A stretch of DNA of 48,691 nucleotides from Dehalococcoidia bacterium (GTDB lineage Bacteria; Chloroflexota; Dehalococcoidia; Lucifugimonadales; Lucifugimonadaceae). The stretch lies in assembly GCA_026421185.1 (NCBI GenBank), contig JAPKCH010000011.1:1-48691 (forward strand), in the 5' to 3' direction. Below, one piece after another: positions 2,611 to 47,961 of the stretch (positions are counted from its first letter, which is position 1; each line of letters opens with the position of its first letter). The notes under the pieces were generated by a model that made no database searches, was not told the origin of the DNA, and saw nothing but the letters and a program-made list of their open reading frames with translations. The position numbers and the translations under genes were made by a program.

Positions 2611-4068
2611 ATGGCAGTACGAACACCGGGCGTTGCTTATAGCATCACGGTTCGATCGGAATATCCGAACACACCTGGAATGTTGGGCAAAATTACCTCT
2701 GCGATTGGTGATGCCGGGGGTAGTGCACAGGGTGTGGACGTTGTGCAGACGTCACAGAAGGAAATGGTTCGTGATTTCACGATCAACACAAGTGGGCACG
2801 ACCACGCTATTCAAGTGGTTGATGCGATCAAGGCTGTAGATAGAGTCAAGGTCAGGAGTGTTTCCGATCAGACTTTCTTGCTTCACGTTGGTGGCAAGAT
2901 TGAGATGCGATCAAGAGTGTCTGTCACTACTCGTGACGATATGTCAAAGGCTTACACACCGGGCGTTGGCCGGGTTTGTATGGCGATTCACGATGATCCC
3001 GCTGCGGTTTGGGCTCTTACGGGTAAGGGCAATACTGTTGCCGTTGTTTCTGATGGATCGGCAGTGCTGGGACTTGGCGACATTGGCGCAGCTGCATCGC
3101 TTCCAGTTATGGAAGGTAAGGCGTTGCTTTTCAAGGAGTTCGGTGGCGTTGATGCATGGCCGATTGTTTTGGACACGAACGACACTGAAGAGATCATCAG
3201 CATTGTCAAGGCGTTGGCTCCAGGATTCGGTGGTATCAACCTCGAAGACATCAGCGCTCCACGTTGTTTCGAGATAGAAGATCGTTTGAGGGCAGAGCTT
3301 GATATCCCAGTGTTCCACGATGATCAGCACGGTACGGCAGTGGTTGTGCTTGCTGGTTTGATCAACGCTTTGAAGATCGTTGACAAGAAGCCTGAGAACT
3401 TGAAGGTCGTTGTAGCTGGTGTTGGTGCAGCGGGTACTGCTTGCACCAAGATTTTGCAGAGATACGGAGTCAAGAACATCATCGGTTACGACCGCTCGGG
3501 TGCTCTTGATCTAAGCCGTGATTACGGCGATAACACGATGAAGCAGTGGTTCGCCGATAACACCAACCCTGACAACTTCACCGGAACTCTGGCTGAGGGC
3601 TTGGTTGGCGCTGACATGCTGCTAGGACTTGCAGGACCGGGTCTGGTAACCACCGAACAGGTTTCAAAGATGACATCTGATGCGATTGTGTTCGCACTTT
3701 CAAATCCCGATCCAGAGATTTGGCCTGAAGAAGTTCCAAACAATGTTCGCGTTATGGCTACGGGGCGAACTGATTACCCGAACCAGGTGAACAACTCGCT
3801 TTGCTTCCCAGGATTGTTCCGAGGAGTATTGGACGTTCGGGCATCGACTATCAACGATGAAATGAAGATCGCTGCTGCGACTGCAATCGCTGGCGTAATT
3901 CCTGATTCCCACATTTCCGAAGATTTCATTATTCCTAGCGTGTTCGACAAGAACGTTGCAAAGCGTGTGGCTCGCGGCGTGTCGAGAATTGCTTCGGAAA
4001 CTGGTGTTGCTCGTCGACGACAGCGTGGAGGCGACGAGGTTTATGCATCGTTCAAGACTCAGGGTTAG
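2611..4068 (+). CDS. NAD(P)-dependent malic enzyme with N-terminal ACT domain
   Basis: Decarboxylates malate to pyruvate. Residues about 9-85 look like an ACT regulatory domain, so allosteric control by a small ligand is likely. The catalytic part follows: YTPGVGRVC at 115-123, LGLGDIGA at 153-160, the acid cluster EDISAPRCFEIE at 212-223 and FHDDQHGTA at 235-243. The dinucleotide-binding segment VVAGVGAAGTA is near 267-277, and ATGRTDYPNQVNN lies at 383-395. At 485 residues it is an ordinary short bacterial malic enzyme plus the ACT module. ATG with GGAGCG upstream. It has its own 271-bp upstream gap and stands next to an FAD oxidoreductase on the same strand. Confidence 0.92.
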   Translation: MAVRTPGVAYSITVRSEYPNTPGMLGKITSAIGDAGGSAQGVDVVQTSQKEMVRDFTINTSGHDHAIQVVDAIKAVDRVKVRSVSDQTFLLHVGGKIEMRSRVSVTTRDDMSKAYTPGVGRVCMAIHDDPAAVWALTGKGNTVAVVSDGSAVLGLGDIGAAASLPVMEGKALLFKEFGGVDAWPIVLDTNDTEEIISIVKALAPGFGGINLEDISAPRCFEIEDRLRAELDIPVFHDDQHGTAVVVLAGLINALKIVDKKPENLKVVVAGVGAAGTACTKILQRYGVKNIIGYDRSGALDLSRDYGDNTMKQWFADNTNPDNFTGTLAEGLVGADMLLGLAGPGLVTTEQVSKMTSDAIVFALSNPDPEIWPEEVPNNVRVMATGRTDYPNQVNNSLCFPGLFRGVLDVRASTINDEMKIAAATAIAGVIPDSHISEDFIIPSVFDKNVAKRVARGVSRIASETGVARRRQRGGDEVYASFKTQG

Positions 4069-42340: not shown

Positions 42341-43831
42341 TTAGCTGTGGCTGACTGGCTCAGGAAGGGTGATGACTCGGAGCAGGTTTGTTGTTCCGGG
42401 AACTCCAATTGGCAAGCCGACTACTGCGACGATTACATCACCGTCTTTGGCTATTTTCGTATCCAGCGCTAGGTCTGACGCTGCCGTGAACATGTCTTGA
42501 ATGTTCTTGTAGTTCGCGACAACGACAGGGATTACTCCCCAGCGGAGAGCGAGTTTTGCCCCGGCACCTATATCGGGAGTTAGAGCCAGTAATGGTGTTG
42601 AAGGTCGATACGCCGCAACGTGAGCGGCGGTGCTACCTGAAGTCGTGAAAGCAACTATAGCTTTCGCGTTCAATCCTGCTGCGACCACTGCTGCACTATC
42701 GGCTATTGCGTCGTCGGCGGCTAAACCGCCTTTGGACGCAGCATCACGCCTTCGATCGGCCAGTTTAGGATATTCGAGATAGCGTTCGGCGCGTTTGGCA
42801 ATTTTAGTCATCGCCTGAACTGCCTTGACCGGGAACTTACCTACCGAGGTTTCTGCCGAAAGCATGATAGCGTCGGTTCCATCTCGAACCGCGTTATAAA
42901 CGTCTGTTACTTCAGCACGTGTTGGAGATGGTGATTCGATCATCGATTCCATCATTTGGGTAGCAGTGATAACCGGTTTGCCGATTTCATTTGCCATGCG
43001 AATGATTTGTTTCTGGACAGACGGAACCCGTTCAAATGGAAGCTCGACACCTAGATCGCCTCGGGCAACCATTACGGCGTCGGATTCAACCAATATTTCG
43101 GCGAGATTGTCGACAGCTTGCTGGATTTCTATTTTTGCTACGAGCTGTGGTGTTTTGCCCGCATTGACGAGATTTTCACGAACCCGCGCAACATCACCAG
43201 CGTCCCTAACGTACGAGAGGCCAACAAAATCGATGTCTGAAGATGCCACGAAATCAAGAGCATCTTCTGTTTCTGGAGTGAAATAGTCGACGGTGGTCGT
43301 GTTTCCGGGAGCTGTGACAGCTTTGTTCGGCTTTATTACACCGCCCATTGTGACTCGGCAGTGAATCTCTTCTTCGTTGATTTCCTTGACACGAAGCTCA
43401 ACTGAGCCTTCATCGATTAATATTAACGAACCAATTTTTATGTCGCTGTGAAGCCCGAGAGGCCAAACATTAGCTCGTTCTACAGTGCCTTCGATTGGTT
43501 CGCGTTGAAGAACGAAGTGCTGGCCAGTTAAAAGTGATATTTCCGACTGAGTCATTTTTCCGACACGGTACTTTGGCCCGGGGAGGTCGGCTAGGATTCC
43601 TACTGCGACGCCCATTTCTTCAGCCGCTTTGCGTAGCACGGCGACGTAGGCGTGATGGTCGGTTGGACTACCGTGACTGAGATTTAGCCTGCCGACAGAC
43701 ATCCCTGCACGTATCAATCGTTTTATCCGAGGAAGCGTGCCTGTCGCAGGTCCGATTGTGCAAACGATACGAGTGCGGGCGCGACTTTTTAGGAACGGTG
43801 GGAGCAAATAAGAACTATCAGTATCGGCCAA
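42341..43831 (-). CDS. pyk: Pyruvate kinase
   Basis: Converts PEP and ADP to pyruvate and ATP. Motifs (counted from the longer TTG 43843 frame): RTRIVCTIGPAT at 23-34, RLNLSHG at 52-58, the KIEIQQAVDNL catalytic Lys/Glu region, MVARGDLGVELP, and PVITATQMMESM. The C-terminal allosteric domain is present. I prefer TTG 43831, 6 nt after GGAG (496 residues), over the TTG at 43843 that overlaps the site. Together with malic enzyme it supplies pyruvate. Confidence 0.95.
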   Translation of the reverse strand: MADTDSSYLLPPFLKSRARTRIVCTIGPATGTLPRIKRLIRAGMSVGRLNLSHGSPTDHHAYVAVLRKAAEEMGVAVGILADLPGPKYRVGKMTQSEISLLTGQHFVLQREPIEGTVERANVWPLGLHSDIKIGSLILIDEGSVELRVKEINEEEIHCRVTMGGVIKPNKAVTAPGNTTTVDYFTPETEDALDFVASSDIDFVGLSYVRDAGDVARVRENLVNAGKTPQLVAKIEIQQAVDNLAEILVESDAVMVARGDLGVELPFERVPSVQKQIIRMANEIGKPVITATQMMESMIESPSPTRAEVTDVYNAVRDGTDAIMLSAETSVGKFPVKAVQAMTKIAKRAERYLEYPKLADRRRDAASKGGLAADDAIADSAAVVAAGLNAKAIVAFTTSGSTAAHVAAYRPSTPLLALTPDIGAGAKLALRWGVIPVVVANYKNIQDMFTAASDLALDTKIAKDGDVIVAVVGLPIGVPGTTNLLRVITLPEPVSHS

Positions 43832-43948
43832 TCGAATCTCCAAATATGTGCGTTGTCAGATGTAGTTCGACAAAAAACTCTATTACGAGCATACACATTT
43901 ACTATGGCAGGTTGGTTCATTTTTGGTCTCAGGATTGCCTATGCGTAT

Positions 43949-43976
43949 TTGACACGGAAACTGACAGGACTAACAT
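43949..43976 (+). promoter_or_regulatory. Candidate promoter for the zinc-ribbon/recombinase-like pair
   Basis: TTGACA at 43949-43954 is a perfect -35 box. TAACAT at 43971-43976 follows at 16 bp. A start near 43984 would leave about 47 nt before the GTG at 44031. Confidence 0.5.
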
Positions 43977-44030
43977 TCAGTAAATACGGCGGCATTTTTT
44001 CCGACAATATTCTGACTTCAGGATCACTAC

Positions 44031-44732
44031 GTGACAATCGCACAATCTCTTCTTTCTCTACAAGACACGGATCAGGTACTAGCACTACGACGTCGCGAAT
44101 ACAGGGAGATTGACACAGAGCTTAGCTCTGAGGGTGGGCTACCTGAACTCCGAGAATCTTTCGAAAAAACAAAAATTCGTAAGCTTGAATCCAAGGTTGA
44201 GAGTGCACGACTTGAATCCGACCTAGCGATGTTGAAAAATGAAGTCGGAGAGCTTGAAACGAGGCTCTACAGTGGTTCCATAACTAACGTTCGAGAGTTG
44301 ACCGCGATTGAAACCGAGCATTCGTTAGTGCGACGAAATCTTGCTCAGATTGAAGAGTCGATTGCTCCAGCTGAAGTTGCAGCAGAGCATGCTCGACAGC
44401 AACTCGAAGATCTAACTCAAGAATTGTCCGACCGAGAGAAGTCTTGGGATACTCGGCAACTCGAACTTCGACACGAAAAAGCTAAACGCGGCACTGCGTT
44501 CAACGAATTGCTTGAAATTCGGAACGTTGAAGCTTCTCAAATTCCAGATGAAGACCTTGCCCGTTACACACGATTATTTCGATCAAACCGTGGCATCGCA
44601 GTTGTAAAAGTCGATCGAGGCGTATGCGGCGGTTGTGCCGTTCGACTTCCAGTCGGTGAACTAACCCGACTACGTGCGGCTGACGGACCTATCCCCTGCA
44701 GCTGTGGCAGGGCACTCCTGACAGAGCAATAA
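44031..44732 (+). CDS. Coiled-coil protein with C4-type zinc ribbon
   Basis: Residues about 15-165 form a long charged helical hairpin (coiled coil), followed by a zinc ribbon with C199-G-G-C202 and C223-S-C225, the arrangement of the CT398/FlgZ-like C4 zinc-ribbon family. The second knuckle is one residue shorter than the usual C-x2-C. Such proteins are thought to act in RNA or DNA-related complexes, but the role is open. GTG start. Its TAA is directly followed by the TTG of the recombinase-like gene. Confidence 0.8.
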   Translation: MTIAQSLLSLQDTDQVLALRRREYREIDTELSSEGGLPELRESFEKTKIRKLESKVESARLESDLAMLKNEVGELETRLYSGSITNVRELTAIETEHSLVRRNLAQIEESIAPAEVAAEHARQQLEDLTQELSDREKSWDTRQLELRHEKAKRGTAFNELLEIRNVEASQIPDEDLARYTRLFRSNRGIAVVKVDRGVCGGCAVRLPVGELTRLRAADGPIPCSCGRALLTEQ

Positions 44733-46172
44733 TTGCGAGCAGTCGGATTCCATAGCGAACCGGCCCAAATTACGAACGCGTCCCTGAATTACGAAAACGT
44801 AAGTCGGAGTGATGGGGATGTTTTTGATTCCGGTGATCGGATTCATCCACGGGCAGAAATCGAACTTTACTGTCAGCGTAATTCTCATACCTTAGATAAT
44901 TGGTTTGAGCCTGAGTTAGATGAATCTGCTAACGATTTCGACGCTCGTCATGATCGTTATCGCCAAATGATAGCTTCGTTTACAGGTGCAAACGCACGTT
45001 TGGCTTTGGTAGTCGTTCCAGATGCTTCGCACATTGCTGAAGATATCGAAACCTTGGTCGTGCGCCTACTTGAACTAGATCGCCTCGGTACCGAGATTCG
45101 ATGTACTGATCCAAATCGTCCTGATGCATTGCAAAGCGGCGAAGAGCTGCTTGGATTGGGTGGTAGATCGCCTCAGCGTCAGGCGAGAATACGTGATGCT
45201 ATTGTCGCCAAAGCTTCACGTGGAGAAGTTCTTGGGCGCACACCGTTCGGGTATGAAGCGGGTCTCGATGGCCTGCTGAAGCCAGTGCCCGTCGAAGCCG
45301 AAGTCGTACGCGAGATTTTCAAGACTTATGCTGGCCCATGGCACGCCGAGGATTCAAAACCTTTTGGTGGACCTGGGTTACGTTCAATAGCGCGTTTACT
45401 AAACGATCGTGGGCTGCGGACTCGTACAGGTCGTCCGTGGTCGGCTCTTGCTGTTTCAGGGATTCTCAAAAATCGAACTTATCTGGGTACGTATACGCGA
45501 TACGGAGTACGAATCGCCGGTAGCCATGAGCCATTAGTCGAGCGAGAAATATATAACAGGGCAGAAGGTGTAACGAAAAGCCGAAAGCCTATCCGCCGGC
45601 GTCCCACAGAACCGCCTTACCTACTCGGCGGGATTGCTCGCTGCGATCTTTGTGGTCGAGGTCTATCGGGACTCACACGCCGTCGTACGTGGACGCGAGT
45701 CGATGGAACCTCAACTTCCAAGTCCTACCGTTACTACGAATGTCCCTCTCGTGACGCTCGTGCTGAACGGACTGTAGGAGTTTCTCGTCACTCGTCTTGG
45801 CATGCCGATCAACTGGAAAAAACCGTTCTGACGGAAGTTCAAGGTTGGGGTGTTCGGATAAAGAAGAAACTACGACCGGTTGTTGGCGACACTGCTGAAG
45901 AAGAAATCGCTGATGCAGAGCGTGAATTCAATCGATCGGTGCGAGCCGTGGCATCGGCTTACGGAACATTGAATGATCTCGCCGGACCTCTTAAGAGACT
46001 CGAAGACGCGCGGACTGGTACAGCGTCGGATGATGTCGTTCAGATTGACGTAAAAAAACTGCTGGAAGAACTGCAAAGTTCAGATATTTCATTGGCAAAG
46101 GCTGCAGCGTCAGCGCTTCTCGAACGTGTGATCACTGGCGAAGAGCAAGTCGAAGTAATTCCACGCTTCTAG
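44733..46172 (+). CDS. Serine-recombinase homologue without catalytic residues
   Basis: The architecture is that of a large serine recombinase: resolvase-like N-terminus (about 1-150), recombinase domain (GRTPFGYEAG at about 169-178 to 270), zinc ribbon (CDLCGRGL near 304-311) and C-terminal helices. The N-terminus aligns as MRAVGFHSEP where active enzymes have Y-x-R-x-S, so the catalytic Ser becomes Pro and the Arg Ser. The later D-R-L-x-R helix reads D-A-S-H-I. The ribbon also lacks a clear fourth Cys. It may bind DNA but is unlikely to cut it. TTG start, zero gap to the preceding gene. Confidence 0.78.
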   Translation: MRAVGFHSEPAQITNASLNYENVSRSDGDVFDSGDRIHPRAEIELYCQRNSHTLDNWFEPELDESANDFDARHDRYRQMIASFTGANARLALVVVPDASHIAEDIETLVVRLLELDRLGTEIRCTDPNRPDALQSGEELLGLGGRSPQRQARIRDAIVAKASRGEVLGRTPFGYEAGLDGLLKPVPVEAEVVREIFKTYAGPWHAEDSKPFGGPGLRSIARLLNDRGLRTRTGRPWSALAVSGILKNRTYLGTYTRYGVRIAGSHEPLVEREIYNRAEGVTKSRKPIRRRPTEPPYLLGGIARCDLCGRGLSGLTRRRTWTRVDGTSTSKSYRYYECPSRDARAERTVGVSRHSSWHADQLEKTVLTEVQGWGVRIKKKLRPVVGDTAEEEIADAEREFNRSVRAVASAYGTLNDLAGPLKRLEDARTGTASDDVVQIDVKKLLEELQSSDISLAKAAASALLERVITGEEQVEVIPRF

Positions 46173-46212
46173 TATCGTTGCCAATTCGGAATAGACAAAC
46201 GCCAGTTGCTAA

Positions 46213-46353
46213 GTTGGTACGGTCACGTTTGTGATGAACACTCAAGAAGAACTTCAGGAAGCATTTTCCGACCACCACACTGGCAAGCTTGGTGTGATTC
46301 CGCCTGACGTTATGCCGCATACATCGCCTGATTATGAAGCGCCGGGCGTCTAG
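46213..46353 (+). pseudogene. Gene-end remnant resembling the C-terminus of pirin
   Basis: After a stop codon at 46210-46212 the frame reads VGTVTFVMNTQEELQEAF, then SDHHTGKLG and on to a stop at 46351. This closely resembles the pirin C-terminal pattern (G-P-F-V-M-N-T ... E-E-I ... D-Y ... G-x-F/L-G). An ATG at 46234 would give a 39-residue peptide, but it has no ribosome site. The remainder of a pirin gene is absent, so a deletion remnant is most likely. Confidence 0.5.
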
Positions 46354-46382
46354 CTTTCACTGAGTGATGTTAGAAACCGATG

Positions 46383-46416
46383 AAAACGCCATCAGCAATA
46401 ATTCTCAGGGCGTTTT
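46383..46416 (+). terminator. Possible terminator before the hydrolase gene
   Basis: AAAACGCC at 46383-46390 pairs with GGCGTTTT at 46409-46416 across an 18-nt loop. The T-run is part of the stem, so strength is uncertain. Confidence 0.4.
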
Positions 46417-46503
46417 GTGTTATTCCCGGTTTCCAGCTCGCTCGGGTAGAGTGGCGTCCAACGAGATTTGACGTAATCTATACCCACTGGAGAACACAGA
46501 CAC

Positions 46504-47346
46504 ATGCCACTTCTGCTGAACGGATTTACTGATCACACGATCAACACTGGCGAAATCGAAATCGGTTATTCGGCTGGTCCTGACAACGGGCCGACTCTGC
46601 TTCTTTTGCATGGCGTTACGAGTCGGCGTGATGGTTTCTTGAGAGTGATCGACGGACTGGTCAACGACTACCGTGTGATCACGATGGATCAGCGCGGACA
46701 CGGCTTTTCCGGTCACGCATCTGGGGCGTACGAACGTGAAGATCACGCACGAGATATTCGCTACGTTATGGAAAACGTTTGCAAGGAACCGACCATCGTT
46801 TGGGGTCACTCGATGGGTGGTGGAAATACAGTTGCAATGGCCAACAATCCGCCATCAAATCTGAAGGCTGTCGTGCTCGAAGACCCCGCAGTATTTGGTC
46901 GAGTTCGTCCAGAGGGCGCGAATAACAGTCCAACCATGAACGGGTTCCAACTGCACCTGAGTTTCATTGAGGCTGGAATGTCGGTCGATCAGATGACCCC
47001 TAAGTTGCAGGAAGCGACTCCGAACCAGCCAGAGTATTTCGCGGCGTGGAAGGCTGAGTGCCTGCTTCAGATGGATGTCGACATTCTTCGCGGAGTGGTC
47101 GCTGGAACGTATCGAGGCTTTGATGATCCGGCTGAGATGCTGGCGAATATTCAAGTGCCGGTGATCCTACTTCAAGCTGATCCAGATACTGGCGGAATTC
47201 TGCCTGATGACTATCTAACAGGAATTCTTCCAGACAACGACTCGTTCACGTCGCAGAAGATCGTTGGTACTGGTCACAATATCAATCGTGAGCACCCTGA
47301 GGAGATTCTGCCAGTAGTACTGCCGTGGTTGGAGAAGCACGCGTAA
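46504..47346 (+). CDS. Alpha/beta hydrolase
   Basis: The 280-residue protein shows a full catalytic triad: nucleophile S103 in GHSMGG, acid D226 in LLQADPDTG and H258 in GTGHNI. The oxyanion segment LLLLHGVTS is at 32-40 and DQRGHGFS at 62-69. The substrate is not predictable; it could be an esterase, lactonase or C-C hydrolase. ATG with a GGAGAA site upstream. It is a single gene between a remnant and rnpB. Confidence 0.85.
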   Translation: MPLLLNGFTDHTINTGEIEIGYSAGPDNGPTLLLLHGVTSRRDGFLRVIDGLVNDYRVITMDQRGHGFSGHASGAYEREDHARDIRYVMENVCKEPTIVWGHSMGGGNTVAMANNPPSNLKAVVLEDPAVFGRVRPEGANNSPTMNGFQLHLSFIEAGMSVDQMTPKLQEATPNQPEYFAAWKAECLLQMDVDILRGVVAGTYRGFDDPAEMLANIQVPVILLQADPDTGGILPDDYLTGILPDNDSFTSQKIVGTGHNINREHPEEILPVVLPWLEKHA

Positions 47347-47400
47347 GTCTGGCTGTATGTCAGCTCGTGGATTGACCTTGGCACCAATCCAAACGCCACA

Positions 47401-47533
47401 CTGTCATTCTGAACTTAACTCAGAATCAGTAGACACAGCGGATATGTCGTTTGACTCAGCGTTGACCTTTCTTGCCATGTTCAACGGATTCCTGTGTGTC
47501 GAACGTGATACTGAATCAAGTACAGCATGACAC
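47401..47533. repeat. Inverted-repeat element upstream of rnpB
   Basis: The left end 47401-47428 (TGTCATTCTGAACTTAACTC core) and the right end 47505-47533 are inverted copies with about 21 of 28 matching bases. An inner CGTTGA/TCAACG pair (near 47459-47486) adds to a long imperfect hairpin of about 133 bp. No open frame is inside. It resembles the GTCATTCTGA-type intergenic palindromes of many genomes, in degraded form. Confidence 0.6.
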
Positions 47534-47573
47534 TTAACGCCCGCTCGACGAACGAAACCTAGTACCCTTGAAT

Positions 47574-47961
47574 GTGTCGCGAGGAGGACGGACGGTCGCC
47601 GCTGTGTTTCGATACAGGGGAGGAAAGTCCGAGCACCTCAAGAATCAGAGTGCCTGCTAACGGCAGGGCGGGGCGACCCGACAGAAAGTGCAACAGAAAA
47701 AAAACCGCCAGAGCGCAAGCGTTTGGTAAGGATGAAACGGTGCGGTAAGAGCGCACCGCTCGGATGGAGACATTCGGGGCAAGGTAAACCTCACTCGGTG
47801 CAAGACCAAATAGGGAAGTGATGACCGGATTCGGGTAGCTTCCGGGTTGGTTGCTTGAGCCTGTGAGCAATTGCAGGCCTAGATGGATGACCGTCACTGG
47901 TTTCGCTTTATTGCGGAGCGAGTACAGGACTCGGCTTACAGTCCGCCTCGCGGCGAGACAC
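47574..47961 (+). ncRNA. rnpB: RNase P RNA, class A
   Basis: Conserved segments appear in the right order: GAGGAAAGTCCGAGC (about 47620), GGTAAGAGCGCACCG (about 47744), AGACCAAATAGG, TGGATGACCGTC and the closing ACTCGGCTTAC. Helix P1 can form between GTGTCGCGAGG at 47574-47584 and the CCTCGC...GACAC end at 47946-47961. The RNA is the catalytic component of RNase P and matures tRNA 5' ends. A T-A-G-T-A-C box at 47560-47565 is a candidate -10. A strong terminator follows. Confidence 0.95.

Follow-up and report, generated by a model that had tools for sequence, protein, structure and literature searches.

A catalytically dead large serine recombinase family of Dehalococcoidia, probably domesticated as a DNA-binding protein

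Introduction

The large serine recombinases (LSRs), or serine integrases, represented here by a comparison set of YokA of SPbeta, A118 Int, Bxb1 and phiC31 (PDB 9dxh, 4kis and 9iu2), carry a resolvase fold that provides a dimerisation surface in the relatives of the protein described below. CcrA, CcrB, CcrC and XisF excise elements. Recruitment of recombinases by cells is known for the tyrosine kind, as in Xer and MrpR. MrpR (YopR), the master repressor of SPbeta, has a tyrosine-recombinase fold but has lost recombination and acts by DNA binding (PMC10516654). According to a review of such recruitment, hosts use serine recombinases for DNA inversion, integration or excision, and no serine resolvase serving chromosome segregation is known there (PMC8987985). 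The literature searched, which lay mostly outside subscription journals, contains no description of an inactive or domesticated serine recombinase, or of SAR202 with a serine recombinase.

Here we describe a catalytically dead LSR homologue (denoted as RC) and the zinc-ribbon gene directly upstream (denoted as the ZR gene) in a stretch of 48,691 nucleotides from a Dehalococcoidia bacterium (contig JAPKCH010000011.1), the whole of which is called the window. A sequence-only reading of the window had proposed that RC is a domesticated DNA-binding protein that acts together with the ZR protein. CT398- and HP0958-like proteins, to which the ZR protein is related, serve elsewhere as RNA-polymerase and nucleic-acid adaptors.

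Results

The TTG start codon of RC is the very next base after the TAA stop of the ZR gene (44730–44732), and the frame is open throughout its 479 codons; both features had been recognized in the sequence-only reading (Table 1). RC shares the domain order of LSRs, comprising a resolvase-fold N-domain, a long helix, a recombinase domain, a zinc ribbon and a helical part. In Pfam, the window RC matches Recombinase (6e-15) and the recombinase zinc ribbon (1e-8), while Resolvase is not matched in the window RC itself. Since Resolvase is found over its entire length in sister members (6e-11 in L087 and 1e-8 in L098), the N-terminus of RC is assigned as a resolvase domain. Among 35 diverse RC members, PF00239 is found in 15, and PF07508 and PF13408 in all. 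An hhalign comparison of the RC family profile with a profile of 12 active LSRs aligns end-to-end over 456 columns (probability 100, 7.5e-65), and RC matches YokA and A118 at 1e-25, with structural Z scores of about 16–17 and 14. In the family alignment, conservation amounts to 0.58 in the DNA-binding domain, 0.55 in the zinc ribbon and 0.36 in the N-domain. The zinc ribbon of the window RC contains Cys304, Cys307 and Cys337, and the fourth position is occupied by Ser351 with a histidine nearby. This fourth cysteine is present in 69% of the RC members and missing in the window's genus. The zinc ribbon, most of which the sequence-only reading had described as intact along with the DNA-binding domain, thus retains three of its four cysteines.

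Table 1. Coordinates of the features at the RC locus in the window.
Feature	Coordinates	Strand	Remarks
Pyruvate kinase gene (pyk)	42341..43843	-	divergent upstream neighbour in the window's family
Promoter-like block of the ZR-RC operon	43947..43983	+	TTGACA-N16-TAACAT; block and spacer conserved across 17 congeneric species
ZR gene	44031..44732	+	coiled coil and C4 zinc ribbon (CT398/HP0958/MSMEG_4306 family); first operon gene
RC, catalytically dead large serine recombinase	44733..46172	+	479 aa, TTG start
RC N-terminal resolvase-fold domain	44733..45167	+	residues 1–145; replaced S8, P10, H73, H100, E103; PF00239 in sister members
RC Recombinase DNA-binding domain (PF07508)	45288..45569	+	residues 186–279; most conserved part of the RC family
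RC recombinase zinc ribbon (PF13408)	45621..45839	+	residues 297–369; three of four Cys retained in the genus
RC C-terminal helical part	45843..46169	+	residues 371–479; terminal beta strands as in other LSRs
rnpB, RNase P RNA gene	47580..47954	+	conserved neighbour downstream of the RC locus

The fold of the window RC was predicted with a mean pLDDT of 70.6, in a model built with active and viral LSRs in the alignment, which possibly pull it towards the LSR fold. Modelled residues 1–136 superimpose on the solved catalytic domain 3guv with a Z score of 12.8 and an rmsd of 2.5 Å over 109 residues, and on 3bvp with a Z score of 12.3. RC is thus predicted to retain the resolvase fold. A model built from the window RC and five genus relatives alone was unusable (pLDDT 37). 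Within the N-domain, Cys47 (44871–44873) of the first helix is nearly invariant (107 of 109 members); the corresponding residue in the active enzymes is Ala, Cys or Val.

The catalytic columns were read from an alignment of 109 RC members with nine active serine recombinases of related genomes, all nine of which possess Arg8, Ser10, Arg45, Arg68 and Arg71. Compared with these enzymes, the window RC has Phe6 for Tyr6, Ser8 for Arg8, Pro10 for Ser10, His73 for Arg45, His100 for Arg68 and Glu103 for Arg71. The sequence-only reading had noticed the replacement of the catalytic serine and arginine and the aberrant second arginine cluster D-A-S-H-I; the latter corresponds to residues 97–101 with the His100 substitution, and incompleteness of the catalytic set extends throughout the family. 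A complete Ser/Arg catalytic set occurs in none of the 109 members, and no single member retains more than four of the seven counted catalytic positions. Serine is found at position 10 in 11 members, and arginine at positions 8, 45 and 71 in 47, 18 and 6 members, respectively; position 68 is mostly histidine (53 of 109). The core glycines Gly5 and Gly119 are retained in the family. The catalytic loss in the window RC is not local decay. Because no RC member has a complete catalytic set, RC has very likely lost recombination, and the substitutions suggest that DNA cleavage was lost as well. Recombination through a changed active site, perhaps one with a different nucleophile, would fit the N-domain fold that is predicted to be kept, the purifying selection described below and the arginine at position 8 in part of the family. 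We regard it as very improbable, since four arginines and the serine are jointly replaced in the window RC and vary freely among the members, neither an att site nor cargo is visible, as the sequence-only reading had noted, and RC stays at a fixed position. Neither the profile alignment nor the fold model places an intact Ser/Arg site elsewhere in RC, and the columns of the 109 members led us to set an alternative nucleophile aside.

RC is a single-copy gene in its own genome, where no other match was found. At a threshold of 1e-3, 51 of 60 near relatives contain a match, mostly one strong match; additional weak matches, present in some of these genomes, are other LSRs. Across the class, 102 of 197 Dehalococcoidia genomes match at 1e-15, nearly all once; two of them (G169 and G203) contain ordinary LSRs, so that about 100 genomes possess RC. 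Scores with the family profile are 441 bits for the window RC and 510–602 bits for three class members, against 227 bits for the best match outside the class. Two diverged, AT-rich RCs of the window's own family, L053 and L054, score 163 and 187 bits, below this outside match, which means that the family cannot be delimited by score alone. Both were assigned to it because they lie next to pyk and rnpB or to the ZR gene. The best non-family matches come from 16 loci, 14 with the canonical YxRxS motif and two with frames that have no N-terminal motif. RC members also match the NCBIfam models of CcrA, CcrB, CcrC and XisF, with best E-values from 1e-18 to 2e-26, but the window RC, at 43.8 bits, lies far below the CcrB family cut-off of 900 bits. 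Homologues in mobile elements, which would have spoken against domestication, were sought in phages, plasmids and viral contigs. No full-length relative was found in phages or plasmids, where none of the best matches listed covers more than 67% of the query and identities are 24–29%, nor in viral contigs, where identity is at most 30% over part of the protein. Those viral-contig relatives in which YxRxS was looked up and found are canonical. Active LSRs belong to mobile elements of variable location, whereas RC shows a fixed gene order and no mobile full-length relative in these searches.

In a tree of 105 RC members and 15 active LSRs, the RC family forms one clade (SH-aLRT 99). The tree groups the GTDB families with more than one sampled member, e.g. 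f1, f43, f46, f47, f57, f60 and f84, as well as the window's genus; three rows stand on long branches, and resolution is lacking at several deep forks. Pairwise dN/dS, computed for 16 of 19 pairs, is 0.05–0.31 for the whole gene where dS is unsaturated, and values in the N-domain are similar (0.03–0.34). The DNA-binding domain mostly shows dN/dS below 0.11, with values of 0.35–0.72 in three very close pairs whose domain dS is about 0.1 or less. The dN/dS check that the sequence-only reading had suggested, carried out here on the RC gene, thus indicates purifying selection. The integrase origin of RC and its absence from several lineages would also be expected of a functionless, decaying remnant of a prophage or other element. 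There is barely any chance of this, given that dN/dS is well below 1, that the RC members listed have stop-free frames, and that G023, a genome of only 1.4 Mb (95% complete), retains RC and no other recombinase candidate. An unselected remnant was set aside on the dN/dS values. Together, single-copy vertical inheritance, a fixed locus, purifying selection and family-wide catalytic loss bear out the proposed domestication of a dead recombinase, which is well supported.

RC occupies a characteristic place in the chromosome. The sequence-only reading had put it beside pyk and rnpB; pyk is indeed the upstream neighbour, but rnpB is not directly adjacent: on the downstream side, 1.4 kb containing an alpha/beta hydrolase gene and the remnant of a pirin gene separate it from RC. 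The hydrolase gene (46504–47346) and the pirin stub fill the interval 46173–47580, from which rnhA is absent. The stub is a 39-codon frame (46234–46353; MNTQEELQEAF...YEAPGV) similar to the 3'-terminal part of a pirin-family gene, of which nothing else remains in the window; this gene is intact at the same place in sister species, e.g. at 3069–4079 of L012. In much of Dehalococcoidia, rnhA and rnpB lie downstream of RC. G032 has RC between pyk and rnpB, as elsewhere, and in the f29 genomes RC remains beside fabD/yceD genes. In L119 (f29), a large SRP RNA gene (RF01854; 5617–5878) follows RC where others have rnpB. RC-less genomes show an uninterrupted order of ZR gene, rnhA and rnpB, or the ZR gene followed by rnpB. 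A single, lasting insertion of an integrase gene after the ZR gene is the simplest reading; the ZR protein tree is too weak to place the gain and losses of RC.

The survey for a conserved gene pair revealed that, at 107 of 114 loci, RC is directly preceded by the ZR gene in the same orientation, usually with a gap of 0–8 bases; the gap is at most 60 bases in 100 of these 107 (with start codons as chosen). The ZR protein consists of a coiled-coil part and a C-terminal C4 zinc ribbon with all four zinc cysteines present. In profile comparison it matches its structurally solved relatives CT398 (3e-26), HP0958 (FlgZ; 9e-24) and MSMEG_4306 (7e-22) over the full length, and with 30.7 bits it remains far below the CdsZ equivalog cut-off of 275 bits. 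The adjacency is consistent with an obligate functional pair in which the dead RC recruits the ZR protein to DNA, and it accords with the complex of chlamydial CT398 with RpoN and core RNA polymerase (PMC5947703) and with the recovery of Wcw_1456, the CT398 homologue of Waddlia, in a screen for DNA-associated proteins (PMC6426960). The distribution of the two genes makes such a pair unlikely. Of 152 class genomes with the ZR gene, about 86 also contain RC and about 66 do not. Conversely, genomes of f29, f34, f80 and f86 have RC but no ZR match at 1e-6. A recheck at 0.01 of eight RC-containing, ZR-less genomes, G032 (f1) and G053 (f18) among them, yielded a single match, marginal and partial, in G219; absence of the ZR gene is less certain in G032, G053, G165 and G219, which are 76–89% complete. 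In total, genomes from six GTDB families possess RC without a convincing ZR gene. Furthermore, the ZR gene adjoins rnhA/rnpB even where RC is absent, so the adjacency of ZR gene and RC is largely inherited. The partnership proposed in the sequence-only reading is therefore supported in part: RC and the ZR gene share an operon, and neither requires the other.

The same neighbourhood raises the question of whether RC, instead of being a regulator that works on duplex DNA, acts on RNA or RNA-DNA hybrids alongside the RNase H and RNase P encoded nearby. The constant vicinity of rnhA and rnpB is in line with such a role, as is the mRNA binding of HP0958, a relative of the ZR protein (PMC5947703). 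It nevertheless appears improbable, because the rnhA-rnpB order occurs without RC, rnhA is missing at this locus in the window's family, and RC retains DNA-binding domains of the LSR type.

In 17 species of the genus, the promoter-like block of the operon is conserved as TTGACA and a -10 element resembling TAGTAT, separated by 16 bases, much of this spacer being conserved as well. A search of five genomes found this block once per genome, at the operon, and it is not recognisable outside the window's genus. Since it is the sole site in each of the five genomes and was not found outside the genus, a regulon is not derivable. The conservation of the spacer would be accounted for by an operator overlapping the promoter, and likewise by other constraints; the genus-limited block may be only a promoter. 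A second genus-conserved block (43886–43899; consensus GAGGATACACA, window GAGCATACACA) is located between the operon promoter and pyk, and is perhaps the pyk promoter.

Discussion

Our findings are best explained by RC being a domesticated LSR, likely a dimeric binder of fixed chromosomal sites that plays a regulatory or architectural role independently of the ZR protein; we assign this reading a probability of roughly 0.7. In the proposed course of events, an integrase gene would have settled once, in an early ancestor within Dehalococcoidia, between the ZR gene and rnhA/rnpB, as suggested by the gene order and the single clade. The alignment shows that the protein has lost its nucleophilic serine together with the arginines around it, and no cargo is visible. 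Under purifying selection it has kept the Recombinase DNA-binding domain, the zinc ribbon and, as predicted by the model, the resolvase fold. In this arrangement, RC would most likely function as a site-specific DNA-binding protein, whose dimer would bind fixed positions in the chromosome, a single one or a small number, and its own operon promoter is one candidate target. RC would work as a regulator or an architectural protein, encoded together with the ZR protein but not dependent on it.

RC differs from the active LSRs in the absence of the catalytic Ser/Arg set, its single copy, its vertical inheritance, its fixed locus and the lack of visible cargo. Judged by analogy, the nearest working analogue of RC is MrpR. 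Both combine a recombinase fold with lost catalytic residues; MrpR binds DNA, and RC probably does so. Unlike MrpR, which is of the tyrosine kind and resides in a prophage, RC is of the serine kind and resides in the chromosomes of a bacterial class. RC is a further instance of a mobile-element enzyme recruited by the cell, an already known phenomenon, and we found no precedent for its dead LSR version in the literature searched.

The annotation "recombinase" at the RC locus does not signal a mobile element. With the class-wide family of dead LSRs, the conversion of a serine recombinase into a DNA-binding protein becomes open to testing, and a cultivated relative exists in Candidatus Lucifugimonas marina, obtained through SAR202 cultivation (PMC10444878). 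The RC orthologue of Lucifugimonas marina (CP046147) is 85% identical. More tentatively, and with somewhat less than an even chance, a serine integrase recruited once early in Dehalococcoidia may have become a core protein with a conserved DNA target that serves as a regulator or chromosome organiser throughout the class. In one large Chloroflexota class, what was once a viral-type integrase of mobile genetic elements seems to have become a regular DNA-binding protein of the cell.
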